Origin: Sandaracinaceae bacterium
GTDB taxonomy: Bacteria; Myxococcota_A; Polyangia; Polyangiales; Sandaracinaceae
Direction of reading: 5' to 3'
Length of the DNA: 64,000 nucleotides
Assembly: GCA_019637095.1 (NCBI GenBank)
Contig: JAHBWG010000001.1
Location: forward strand, 62,001-126,000
The notes under the pieces were generated by a model. The model saw nothing but the letters and a program-made list of their open reading frames with translations, made no database searches and had not been told where the DNA came from. Shown here in pieces: positions 26,948 to 36,833 of the stretch (within the stretch, counting starts at the first letter, position 1; each line of letters begins with the position of its first letter). The position numbers and the translations under genes were made by a program.

Positions 26948-27859
26948 ATGGGGCGCACGGGAACGCTGATGTTGCTGGGCAGCATGCTCGCTGCGTGCAC
27001 GCCGGGCCCCATCGTCGGCCGTTGCACCGTCGGCGCGGACTGCGCCTCCGGCGTCTGCCTCGGGGACGGCACGTGTGCACCGCAGCAGGAGGCCGACGGC
27101 GGCGCGCCGAGCCCCGACGCGTTCGTGCCGCCCGGGACGGACGCGGGCCGCCCGGACGCGGGCCCGCCCGCGCACTGCGTCCCGAACGAGGACGGCGTCG
27201 TCTCGCGCGCCGAGGCGCCGTTCGGCCCGGGCCTCGCCGCGCGCTACGTCGTGACGGGCGGCGTGCCGGTCGACACGGCGGGCGCGGGCGGCCGCTGGGA
27301 CTACGGCGGCGCGCTCCCGGGCGATCACCCCTTCGACGTGCGCACCGAGGCGCCGGACGGACGCTGGTTCGCCGACCGCTTCCCCGGCGCCGATTACGTC
27401 GCGCCGCTCGCGGAGGATCGCGATCTGCTCGGCGTGTTCCGCGTCACCAACGCGTCGCTCGAGCTGCTCGGCGTCGTCTCGCCGCTCGAGGGCGTCGGCC
27501 GCACGGAGCTCCGCTTCGAGCCCGCCGTGCGCATGCTGAGCTTCCCCCTCGCGCGCGGCGATCGCTGGACGACCGAGACGCGCGTGACCGGCCTCGCCTC
27601 GGGCCTCGCGGCGAACTTCACCGAGACCTACGAGGTCGAGGTCGACGCGCGCGGTGACGTCGTCACGCCCTACGCCCCCTTCGACGCGCTGCGCGTGCGC
27701 GTCACCCTCACGCGGACGGTCGGCTTCACGCGGACCGTCACGCGCCAGTTCCTCTTCGTGGCCGAGTGCTTCGGCACCGTCGCCACGGTGGTCTCCGAAG
27801 AGAACGAGACCGAGATCGAGTTCCGCCGCGCCGCCGAGATCCGTCGGCTCGGCTTCTGA
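26948..27859 (+). CDS. Operon lipoprotein paralog 1
   Basis: 303 residues with a lipoprotein signal ending in GSMLAAC, a CTVGADCASGVCLGDGTC cysteine knot and an Asp/Pro/Gly spacer. The ~210-residue domain after CVPNEDG is shared with the genes at 29429 and 32972: WDYGG near the start, FPGADY, LLGVVS, then RTEL, FPLARGDRW, EVEVDARG, and a C-terminal CFGTVATV followed by AEIRRL. It probably sits on the outer membrane and binds a ligand. No named family is recognised. First gene of the proposed PhaR-controlled operon. Confidence 0.75.
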   Translation: MGRTGTLMLLGSMLAACTPGPIVGRCTVGADCASGVCLGDGTCAPQQEADGGAPSPDAFVPPGTDAGRPDAGPPAHCVPNEDGVVSRAEAPFGPGLAARYVVTGGVPVDTAGAGGRWDYGGALPGDHPFDVRTEAPDGRWFADRFPGADYVAPLAEDRDLLGVFRVTNASLELLGVVSPLEGVGRTELRFEPAVRMLSFPLARGDRWTTETRVTGLASGLAANFTETYEVEVDARGDVVTPYAPFDALRVRVTLTRTVGFTRTVTRQFLFVAECFGTVATVVSEENETEIEFRRAAEIRRLGF

Positions 27860-27912
27860 GCCCTTCTAGTTCGAGCCCCACGACCCCCGACGAACCGAGA
27901 GAGGTGCGAGCC

Positions 27913-34140: not shown

Positions 34141-35829
34141 ATGGTCGACCCCACGCCCTACCTCGAGCCGCGGATCGCGCCGCGCGCGATCTTCGACGCG
34201 CTGCCCGAGCGCGCGAGCCGCGTCCGCTACATGGTCCCCGACGGCGACGACTGGCGCGCGGTGACCTGGCAGGCGCACGCGAAGGACATCCGCCGCGCCG
34301 CGCTCTTCCTCGGCGGCGAGCTCGAGGGGGGCGCGCGCGCCGCGATCTTCGCGCCCAACCGCGTCGAGTGGATGGCCGCCGCGCTCGCGATCCAGGCGGC
34401 GGGCGGCGTGATGGTCCCCGTCTATCCGTCGAGCACCGCGGAGCAGGCCGGGTACATCGTCGCGCACGCCGACGCGCGCGTGCTCTTCGTCGACACGGCG
34501 CCGCTGCTGTCGCGCGTGCTCGAGGCGTGGGACCAGCTCGAGGGCGTGCGCCGGATCGTGCTCTTCGACGAGACACTCGACGTCGCCGCGATCCTCGCGG
34601 AGCTGACCTCGAGGGGGCGCAAGGTGCCTTCCTTCGCCGCGGTCGAGAAGCGGCTCGTCACCTGGCCGCGCGCGCTCGCGATGGGCGCCGCGCGCGACCG
34701 CGAGGAGCCGGGCGCGTTCGAGCGCGCGATGCACGCGGTGGGTCTCGGTCAGCCCGGCGTCATGCTCTACACCTCGGGCACGAGCGGGCCGCCCAAGGGC
34801 GTGCCGCTCACCCACGAGAACGTCGCCGTCAACGGCGGCGACTGGCTGCGCTGCCTCTCTCCGCTCGTCGAGGAGGGCGACGTCGATCTGCTCTGGCTGC
34901 CGTTCAGCCACATCTTCGGCTTCGGCGAGGCGTGCCTCGGCAACACGCTCGGCTGGACGAGCTACCTCTCGCACCCGCACACCGTCATCGCGGACTTGCC
35001 GCGCGTGCGGCCCGACGTGCTCATGAGCGTCCCGAGCGTGTGGGAGAAGCTCGCCGTCGAGGCAAGAGAGAGCGAGGCCAAGCTCCACGAGCTCACCGGC
35101 GGCCGCCTGCGCTTCTGCCTCTCGGGCGGCGCCGGCCTCAAGCGCGCCGTCAAGGAACGTTTCCATGCTGCGGGCCTCCTGATCGTCGAGGGCTACGGCC
35201 TCACCGAGGCGAGCCCGACCTTGACCCTCAACCGCCCCGACGCCTTCCGGTTCGACTCCGTCGGCAAGGCCCTGCCCTCCGTCGAGCTCAAGCTCGCCGA
35301 GGACGGCGAGATCCTCGCGCGCGGCAAGAGCATCTTCGCCGGCTACCACAAGGACCCGGAGGCGAGCGCCGCCGCGTTCACGCCCGACGGCTGGCTCAAG
35401 ACGGGTGACGTCGGCCGCTTCACCGACGGGGGGTTCTTGCAGATCGTCGATCGCAAGAAGGACATCTTCGTCACCGCGGGCGGCAAGAACGTCGCGCCGG
35501 CGAACATCGAGGTGCGCTTTCGCGACGACCCGTACATCGCGCACCTCGTCGTCGCGGGCGACGGCGAGAAGTACCTCACCGCGCTCGTGTGGCTCAACGA
35601 CGCCGCCGTCCGCGAGGCCGCCGGCGGCCCCGAGGCGCGCCGGGCGCTGGTCGACAAGCGCATCGCCGCCGTCAACGCCGAGCTCGCGCGGCACGAGACC
35701 ATCAAGAAGTTCGCCATCGTCGAGGAGCCGCTCACCGTCGAGGCGGGCCTGCTCACCCCGACGCTCAAGCCCAAGCGCAAGCTCATCCTCGAGCGCTACC
35801 GCGACGCGCTCGCCGCCCTCTACGCATGA
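34141..35829 (+). CDS. AMP-forming acyl-CoA synthetase (FadD-type)
   Basis: 562 residues, a complete adenylate-forming enzyme: P-loop [13 protein letters not shown] (208-220), [13 protein letters not shown] near 350, hinge-region [12 protein letters not shown] near 420, and [17 protein letters not shown] with the distal catalytic Lys region. It fits the long-chain acyl-CoA synthetase branch used in bacteria for fatty or hydroxy acids, making acyl-AMP then acyl-CoA. It starts one base after the PhaE-like stop and overlaps phaC2 by ATGA, so its product is plausibly passed to that synthase. Chain-length preference cannot be read from sequence. Confidence 0.9.
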
Positions 35830-36833
35830 ACCGCTGGCTACGCCTCGCCGAGCGCCTGCGCCGCGGCCGCCCTCCCGTCGGCACCACCCCGGCGGACGTC
35901 GTCCACCGCGAGAACAAGTGGCGCCTCTTGCGCTACCGCTCCGAGCGCGTCCGCTACCGCACGCCCATCCTCCTCGTCCCCTCGCTCATCAACCGCCACT
36001 ACGTGCTCGATCTGTTGCCCGGCAAGAGCTTCGCCGAGCACCTCGTCGCGCAGGGCTTCGACGTCTTCTGCATCGACTGGGGCACCCCCGCCGACGAGGA
36101 CCGCTACCTCACGTTCGACGACGTCTGCGGCCGCACGCTCGCGCGCGCCGTCCGCGCCGCCTCGCGCCACGGCGCGCGCGGCACCTGCCACGTCCTGGGC
36201 TACTGCATGGGCGGTACGCTCGCCGCGATCCACGCCGCCCGCTTCCCCGACCGCCTCGCCTCGCTCCTCGTCCTCGCCGCTCCGGTCGAGTTCGACGACG
36301 AGGGCTTGCTCAGCGCGTGGACCCGCTCGGACGGCTTCGACGTCGACGCGCTCGTCGACGGCCTCGGCAACGTCCCATGGCCGCTCCTGCAAGCGAGCTT
36401 CCACATGCTCCGCCCCACCCTCAACCTCGCCAAGGCCGTCACCCTCGCCGACCGCGCGTGGGACGACCGCTTCCTCGACGGCTTCTTCGCCCTCGAGACG
36501 TGGGGTAACGACAACGTCGACTTCCCTGGAGAGTGCTACCGCACCTGGATCCGCGACGTCTACCGAGCCAACGCCCTCGTCCGCGGCGAGCTCTCGCTCA
36601 TGGGCCGCCGCGTCCGCCTCTCCGACGTCACCTGCCCGCTCCTCGCCGTCACCTTCGAGCACGACAACATCGTCCCCCACCGCTCCGCGAGCGCGCTGGT
36701 CGAGCGCGCCGGCTCCGCCGACAAGCAGCACCTGCACCTGCCCGGCGGCCACGTCGGCGCCGTCGTCTCCAGCGGCGCCAAGGCCCACCTCTGGCCCACC
36801 CTCACCGCGTGGTGGGCCGCCCGCGATGTGTGA
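35826..36833 (+). CDS. Second PHA synthase, class III PhaC-like
   Basis: 335 residues. Nucleophile box [13 protein letters not shown] (C127), Asp in FEHDNIVPH (D280) and His in [12 protein letters not shown] (H309), with the same spacings as the PhaC at 24467-25486 but clearly diverged. Basic N-terminus ([15 protein letters not shown]). The pair of synthases probably differ in substrate or timing. Being last in an operon with an acyl-CoA synthetase, this one is likely fed from exogenous acids rather than acetyl-CoA. An acyltransferase acting on other acceptors is possible. Confidence 0.85.

Follow-up and report, generated by a model that had tools for sequence, protein, structure and literature searches.

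Loci for polyhydroxyalkanoate (PHA) storage usually encode cytoplasmic functions, namely thiolase, reductase, synthase, phasins, depolymerase and regulator. The locus described here lies in a 64,000-nucleotide stretch (the window) of the 9.25-Mb genome of a Sandaracinaceae bacterium of the Myxococcota (contig JAHBWG010000001.1, positions 62,001 to 126,000); its PHA synthase operon, at 26948-36833 of the window, also carries genes for an outer-membrane barrel and lipoproteins. Class III PhaC-PhaE systems (TIGR01836/TIGR01834) share with the locus a short PhaC with Cys-Asp-His and a PhaE-type partner gene nearby. The locus differs in that its synthase, PhaC2, scores 280.4 bits against TIGR01836, below the curated cut-off of 365.3 bits, and is therefore named class-III-like (of 379 Myxococcota genomes, only 3 score above this cut-off); in that the partner is of around 100 residues and corresponds to the PhaE C-terminus; and in that outer-membrane genes belong to the operon.

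The PhaR/PhbF/AniA regulons have in common with the locus a PHB_acc_N regulator, here usually encoded divergently from its target, and a TGC-N3-GCA palindrome. Passages of the published work give footprinted sites for Herbaspirillum (TG[N]TGC[N]3GCAA, PMC3206438) and Bradyrhizobium (TGCRNYGCASMA, PMC6201568), and report that in Bradyrhizobium and Paracoccus PhaR loses its binding to DNA once polyhydroxybutyrate (PHB) is present (PMC6201568). The target operon at our locus differs in its leading genes, which are for outer-membrane lipoproteins, a hydrolase and a channel; the passages of the PhaR literature consulted contain no such outer-membrane target. Extracellular short-chain PHA degradation follows a shared logic of hydrolysis outside the cell, uptake of the hydroxy acid and CoA activation, and related loci in sister genomes hold a secreted depolymerase with a PhaR-type site. 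The present locus departs from it in having a hydrolase that falls under the depolymerase cut-offs and a dedicated channel and lipoproteins in the operon. Finally, the OprD/Occ carboxylate channels and AlgE resemble the modelled barrel in their 18 strands and charged, Arg-rich lumen; the barrel differs in its sequence (around 10% identity) and in being of TIGR04551 type. PHB production is documented for marine myxobacteria (PMC6226438) and, in activated sludge, most Myxococcota bins are reported to carry PHA genes (PMC11821767); the relevant passages of these two papers do not describe an outer-membrane module. In the partial literature collection searched, no title or abstract described such a locus and no paper named TIGR04551.

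We favour the reading that PHA-storage genes and a dedicated outer-membrane module for acquisition make up one cluster at this locus, which is controlled by PhaR and scavenges esters of short-chain (hydroxy)acids into PHA; we put its probability at roughly 0.5. We prefer it because of the conserved order of four envelope genes (the quartet LpA-HYD-BAR-LpC), their co-occurrence with PhaC, the PhaR-type sites and the swapping of inner-membrane carriers, together with the catalytic triad of HYD, the Arg-lined barrel of carboxylate/polyanion-channel type, the parts found in sister genomes and an enrichment of secreted depolymerases. The nine plus-strand genes were called from codon usage and assigned to families with Pfam and NCBIfam:

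26948-27859, plus strand: LpA, lipoprotein with a Cys-rich N-terminal motif and an Asp/Pro-rich linker, paralogue of LpB and LpC, core gene (gene calling)
27913-29409, plus strand: SSS, sodium:solute symporter, lineage-specific insertion (PF00474, 8e-34)
29429-30415, plus strand: LpB, second LpA-type lipoprotein, lineage-specific duplicate (gene calling, paralogy)
30439-31398, plus strand: HYD, lipoprotein alpha/beta hydrolase, Ser114-Asp236-His264 intact, core gene (PF00561, Abhydrolase_1, 4.9e-35)
31395-32975, plus strand: BAR, TIGR04551-type outer-membrane barrel, predicted 18-stranded, core gene (TIGR04551, 297.6 bits)
32972-33817, plus strand: LpC, lipoprotein with a predicted YmcC-like beta fold, core gene (AF2 model)
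33822-34139, plus strand: phaE, short, corresponding to the C-terminal portion of a class III PhaE (TIGR01834, weak, E=7e-4)
34141-35829, plus strand: ACS, AMP-forming acyl-CoA ligase (PF00501, 1.5e-62)
35826-36833, plus strand: phaC2, class-III-like PHA synthase, Cys-Asp-His intact (TIGR01836, 280 bits)

Three gene pairs overlap by 4 bases (HYD/BAR, BAR/LpC and ACS/phaC2) and the remaining gaps are of 1-53 bases. Terminator-like sites across the operon do not rise above background; a single weak stem with a poor T-tail lies at 27846-27862, between genes 1 and 2. The nine genes may be read as one transcript. A first-pass annotation of the window had described nine plus-strand genes with several 4-base overlaps, encoding paralogous lipoproteins, a symporter, a hydrolase, a barrel, a PhaE-like protein, a synthetase and a PhaC with intact Cys-Asp-His. 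Gene calling reproduces these genes and overlaps, Pfam, NCBIfam and paralogy agree with the families, and alignments to C. necator PhaC and within the family agree with the triad.

Gene order was compared using 40 loci fetched from Myxococcota genomes and 80 named loci from an all-species collection (the best 80 of 402); 87 loci were long enough for the comparison, 73 of them distinct. The conserved core comprises seven genes, the quartet followed by mini-PhaE, ACS and phaC2. HYD adjoins BAR in 72 of the 73 distinct loci, the quartet is complete in 69, and phaE-ACS-phaC2 stands directly behind it in 58. Among cultured relatives, Minicystis rosea DSM 24000 has the quartet together with phaE and ACS (L100). 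Across the 87 long loci the recurrent families are BAR (87), the lipoproteins (87), HYD (86), PhaC (85), ACS (83), PhaR (78), mini-PhaE (78), a phasin-like small gene (57) and a PhaB-like enzyme (49). Such retention over several classes is strong evidence of linkage. The nine-gene order put forward by the first-pass annotation was therefore right in its core, which recurs phylum-wide; the symporter and the middle lipoprotein LpB are lineage insertions, found inside the operon in the closest Sandaracinaceae loci only. Among the matches listed, the closest named relative at the locus is a Sandaracinaceae metagenome-assembled genome, with a barrel 77% identical. Relatives of LpC occur in 74 of 379 Myxococcota genomes, mostly as two copies around 3.4 kb apart. 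A class-III-like PhaC is present in 73 of the 74 quartet genomes vs 73 of the 305 others (Fisher p=1.4e-35, a value that ignores kinship and overstates independence because the genomes share ancestry). Three variant loci were seen in genomes of one family (L068, L069, L070; family f36), with three LpA-type domains 5′ of HYD and BAR, some within one long open frame, and only distant PhaC and ACS relatives.

The operon is joined to a second, divergent pha operon, which was missed when the nine genes were first proposed as a single outside-to-storage unit. The acquisition-type and PHA-synthesis modules of that proposal are indeed conserved and apparently co-regulated, and the divergent cluster (23142-25797) belongs to the same locus, predicted PhaR operators connecting the two:

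25489-25797, minus strand: small phasin-like protein, whose gene opens the divergent pha operon (position; no Pfam or NCBIfam match)
24467-25486, minus strand: phaC1, second class-III-like PhaC, triad residues intact (profile and family alignment)
23731-24480, minus strand: PhaB-like short-chain dehydrogenase (PF13561/PF00106)
23142-23729, minus strand: phaR, PHB-responsive regulator (PF07879, PHB_acc_N, 1.6e-24)
26812-26828, unstranded: predicted PhaR operator ATATTGCAACGCAACAG, around 120 bp 5′ of LpA (position weight matrix, 21.9 bits, best of 5 window matches)
26888-26904, unstranded: predicted PhaR operator, around 43 bp 5′ of LpA (17.3 bits, second)
25964-25980, unstranded: predicted PhaR operator 5′ of the divergent phasin/phaC1/phaB/phaR operon (16.9 bits, third)
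26969-26985, unstranded: possible PhaR operator just inside the LpA start (12.0 bits, fourth)

PhaR itself scores 86.2 bits against PHB_acc_N (cut-off 25). Its gene is divergent to LpA in 60 of 85 long loci; in the window it lies at the far end of the divergent cluster. An inverted-repeat search of 49 phaR-LpA intergenic regions returned one dominant signal, TTGC-N3-GCAA, extended to TGTTGC-N3-GCAACA, which equals the published PhaR/PhbF sites including their purine-N-pyrimidine centre. A symmetric matrix built from the relatives' intergenic regions, with the window excluded from training, finds a site in 47 of the 49 regions vs 1.1 in shuffles. It matches the 64-kb window five times, and the top four matches are at the promoters of the two operons or the LpA start. 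In 1.7 Mb of related loci, sites occur 5′ of phaR in 72 of 78 loci, of LpA in 65 of 84 and of the phasin-like gene in 18 of 18. A genome-wide PhaR regulon was also sought by pattern with 2 mismatches and rejected, as the yield was at background level (57 sites vs 77 in the reversed control); we consequently relied on the window's matrix matches and on sites within 1 mismatch alone. The whole genome holds only 2 sites within 1 mismatch of TGTTGCRNYGCAACA, one of which is the 26812 site. Given these operator matches, PhaR control of the operon is a strong prediction. The operators flank a small plus-strand gene (26043-26624) between the divergent operon and LpA, with weak AlkZ-related similarity (PF24741, below cut-off).

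Both synthases keep their catalytic residues. An alignment to C. necator PhaC (5hz2) places Cys127, Asp280 and His309 of PhaC2 at the catalytic positions, and across 30 PhaC1/PhaC2 sequences Cys127 and Asp280 are invariant and His309 is kept in at least 90%. The window PhaE scores 19.2 bits against TIGR01834 (cut-off 154.95) and covers only profile positions 233-321; within the mini-PhaE family 38 of 46 members match TIGR01834 (best 5.9e-10) and 33 of 46 match PF09712. In the PDB, ACS comes closest to chains of carboxylic acid reductases, of feruloyl-CoA synthetase and of FadD-type ligases (E around 1e-28 to 1e-30). In a dozen or more quartet genomes (such as G150, G169, G213, G256, G330 and G375) the sole class-III-like PhaC found is the one at the quartet locus, which indicates that this is the main PHA synthase operon of those genomes and not a private side route.

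LpA, LpB and LpC are mutually paralogous and fall in no Pfam or NCBIfam family, and none of 67 LpA/LpC members has a Pfam match. Orthologues of LpA (around 35-63% identical) stand 5′ of HYD in nearly all loci. On a simple pattern for a signal peptide and Cys lipobox applied to called starts, together with the HYD alignment, LpA, LpC and HYD are predicted lipoproteins with these features kept in orthologues. A lipobox-like sequence is present in 49 of 68 called LpA orthologues, several of the others being truncated or having a misplaced start, and in 65 of 79 LpC sequences. The HYD triad Ser114-Asp236-His264 is invariant in 33 aligned sequences, most of which have a lipobox-type Cys. HYD lies below the depolymerase cut-offs (NF050089, intracellular scl-PHA, i.e. 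short-chain, 72 of 300 bits; TIGR02240, 31.1 of 250.6 bits) and, among the matches listed, above none of the curated NCBIfam cut-offs. LpA, LpC and HYD would be expected at the cell surface or in the periplasm.

BAR falls just under the TIGR04551 cut-off of 300 bits, which several quartet-locus orthologues exceed (for example 363.7 bits in G330 C46). Its AF2 model (pLDDT 87.9) has 18 strands by our count and matches MOMP (Z 26.5), AlgE (26.0) and OprD/Occ (around 23) in fold; the BAR sequence has no Pfam match. With strand faces set by polarity alternation rather than from coordinates, 14 of the 15 conserved strand Arg residues fall on the pore-facing polar side, together with conserved acidic residues; such Arg residues would be as expected for a pore passing anions. 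TIGR04551 was rejected as a marker of the operon: the family, present in 272 of 379 Myxococcota genomes, is far commoner than the quartet, and most genomes of the phylum carry a second such barrel in unrelated contexts. That of the window genome (G000:C119:29504-31174; L167:7502-9490, minus strand) is away from PHA genes and PhaR sites, and its neighbours resemble by eye ribonuclease J, trigger factor and ClpP. The AF2 model of LpC (pLDDT 93.1) suggests a YmcC-like beta fold (Z 10.0 to 4fvs and 9.5 to 3fzx over around 170 residues), with Z 7.5 to a DUF1849 protein (6ntr) and low-ranking similarity to the lipid carriers LmcA, LolA and LprG. The likeness to YmcC speaks for fold, not for ligand.

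Inner-membrane carriers have repeatedly been recruited to the locus, an observation supported by two unrelated families. SSS is a clear PF00474 member (117.6 bits, cut-off 22.8) and scores below the curated cut-offs of named transporters (PanF 127.9 of 328, PutP 92.3 of 515.5 and ActP 27.5 of 750 bits); phmmer finds no solved relative even at E=1. A close homologue occurs in 13 of 25 surveyed genomes, exactly one per genome, and in 9 of the 13 it is in or near the locus. Seven other distinct loci have a major facilitator superfamily (MFS) carrier, unrelated to SSS and weakly similar to organic-anion MFS groups; in several its gene lies immediately between phaR and LpA and is read the same way as the operon. 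The two carriers occur together at no locus. An uptake route would be expected to show this kind of exchange between inner-membrane carriers.

Two sister genomes of the same family, Sandaracinus-like (G178, on one contig, and G357, on two), have no LpC match and are missing the quartet. In these, phaR is divergent from phaE-ACS-phaC2 with PhaR-type operators between. Such sites are also found before the genes for a secreted scl-PHA depolymerase (300.7 bits against a cut-off of 150), for an intracellular PhaZ accompanied by a short-chain dehydrogenase, and for an alpha/beta hydrolase of lipoprotein type, behind which comes a putative barrel that, judged from its sequence, is unrelated to BAR. 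Parts of the same kind thus recur as non-homologous proteins at the same regulated locus, which supports a function with outside esters and makes PHB or its fragments a plausible substrate. Secreted scl-PHA depolymerases above 200 bits are enriched among quartet genomes (13 of 74 vs 18 of 305 others, p=0.003). In the window genome a single, weaker match lies elsewhere (C165, 158.6 bits). PHB polymer as the universal outside substrate was rejected, only those 13 of the 74 genomes having a strong secreted depolymerase; unless others supply fragments, PHB would not be the general substrate, so that oligomers which others have made, or different short-chain esters, have to be considered. In one further genome, a strong secreted scl-PHA depolymerase (G359:C107:10144-10980, 308.6 bits) was seen around 1 kb from a class-III-like PhaC and around 4.5 kb from quartet lipoproteins on the same contig.

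From these parts we infer a chain from hydrolysis through uptake and CoA activation to polymer. LpA, LpC and the lipoprotein HYD would cooperate with the 18-strand, Arg-lined outer-membrane channel, and the quartet would capture and hydrolyse short-chain (hydroxy)carboxylate esters, such as PHB fragments or esters from lysed prey or detritus. The freed acid would pass the inner membrane by a recruited carrier, here the Na+ symporter and in other lineages the MFS carrier. The CoA ligase would activate the acid, PhaC2 and mini-PhaE would polymerise it, and the divergent PhaB-type reductase may supply (R)-3-hydroxyacyl-CoA alongside. Release of PhaR from DNA once PHB is present would allow uptake and synthesis together during granule growth.

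Several observations weigh against this scheme. Most quartet genomes, the window genome included, lack a strong secreted PHB depolymerase, and no inner-membrane carrier lies near most of the quartet loci. The 305 non-quartet genomes include many that are incomplete or distant, and the co-occurrence with PhaC is partly ancestry. HYD fits many alpha/beta-hydrolase families about equally, PHB depolymerases among PDB matches included; ACS has no close characterised relative, its nearest solved structures allowing no call of substrate; and the sequence of SSS gives no clue to the solute. The Arg-lined pore is compatible with either direction of transport, the equally good fold match AlgE being an exporter. 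That match fits a channel and lipoproteins which let 3-hydroxybutyrate or oligomers out during granule mobilisation; the Na+ symporter and CoA ligase serve import, however, and export offers no obvious role for a conserved extracytoplasmic esterase, so release in place of uptake is improbable. Another proposal has PhaC2 making short PHB chains that are handed to envelope proteins or bound to them (complexed or conjugated PHB), with the quartet as envelope partner. It fits the presence of a PHA synthase and outer-membrane genes at one locus, and short-chain conjugated PHB on proteins is reported (PMC3709699). The locus has no polymer export route, though, and ACS and the carriers would be left unexplained; we regard this proposal as highly improbable.

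The substrate might instead be lipid. HYD would free medium- or long-chain fatty acids, BAR pass them and ACS activate them, with intermediates of beta-oxidation feeding PhaC. Predatory bacteria encounter prey lipids, ACS matches FadD-type ligases, and the modelled fold of LpC has its low-ranking likeness to LmcA, LolA and LprG. Yet BAR is closer to channels for polar substrates than to FadL and has conserved charged lumen residues, no beta-oxidation or PhaJ-type gene was recognised among the recurrent families of the locus, and the sister genomes place PhaR-type sites before a short-chain PHA depolymerase. Lipid scavenging thus seems unlikely. We also consider it quite unlikely that the pha genes do ordinary making and recycling of PHB, with ACS re-activating intracellular 3-hydroxybutyrate, while the quartet has a separate envelope job and PhaR times both. 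In keeping with such a division, the locus PhaC is the only class-III-like PhaC in many genomes, the Sandaracinus-like genomes hold phaE-ACS-phaC2 without the quartet, and a few loci have the quartet with phaE-ACS-phaC2 not directly behind it; the DUF1849 protein among the LpC fold matches is of the EipB family, tied to envelope integrity. Against this division are the single order of quartet and pha genes over most of the phylum, the carriers that repeatedly join the same locus, and the unrelated hydrolase-barrel pair behind PhaR-type sites in the sister genomes.

Beyond the pha genes, a DDE transposase gene (37166-38716, minus strand; PF13751/PF01609) lies immediately 3′ of the operon, where G+C is lower (0.70). 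On the other side, a plus-strand gene (21589-23138) encodes half of a YeeE/YedE-type sulphur transporter (PF04143) with a secreted-looking N-terminal domain that is cytochrome c7-like (E=4e-4) and has several CxxCH haem motifs, an unusual multihaem-transporter fusion; a second PF04143 gene follows.

Relative to the first-pass annotation, the present analysis shows the operon to be conserved across the phylum, corrects its core and unites it with the divergent pha cluster. It also adds predicted PhaR operators, the exchange of carriers, a barrel predicted to be of carboxylate/polyanion type and the sister-genome parallel. With outer-membrane and lipoprotein genes in a PHA synthase operon throughout much of a phylum, the arrangement makes a testable link between envelope and carbon storage, and gives two uncharacterised families, the LpA/LpC lipoproteins and the TIGR04551 barrels, a first functional context. 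We tentatively suggest, at somewhat less than even odds, that the locus represents an ‘outside-to-storage’ system, widespread in Myxococcota and controlled by PhaR, with an outer-membrane complex of esterase and channel supplying the PHA synthase encoded in its own operon; LpA/LpC and the TIGR04551 barrel of the quartet would then form a new class of outer-membrane acquisition complex, and predators may derive PHA straight from the esters or PHB of their prey. Such a possible route from polyester fragments or prey esters to new polymer would be of interest for myxobacterial ecology and for bioplastic recycling.

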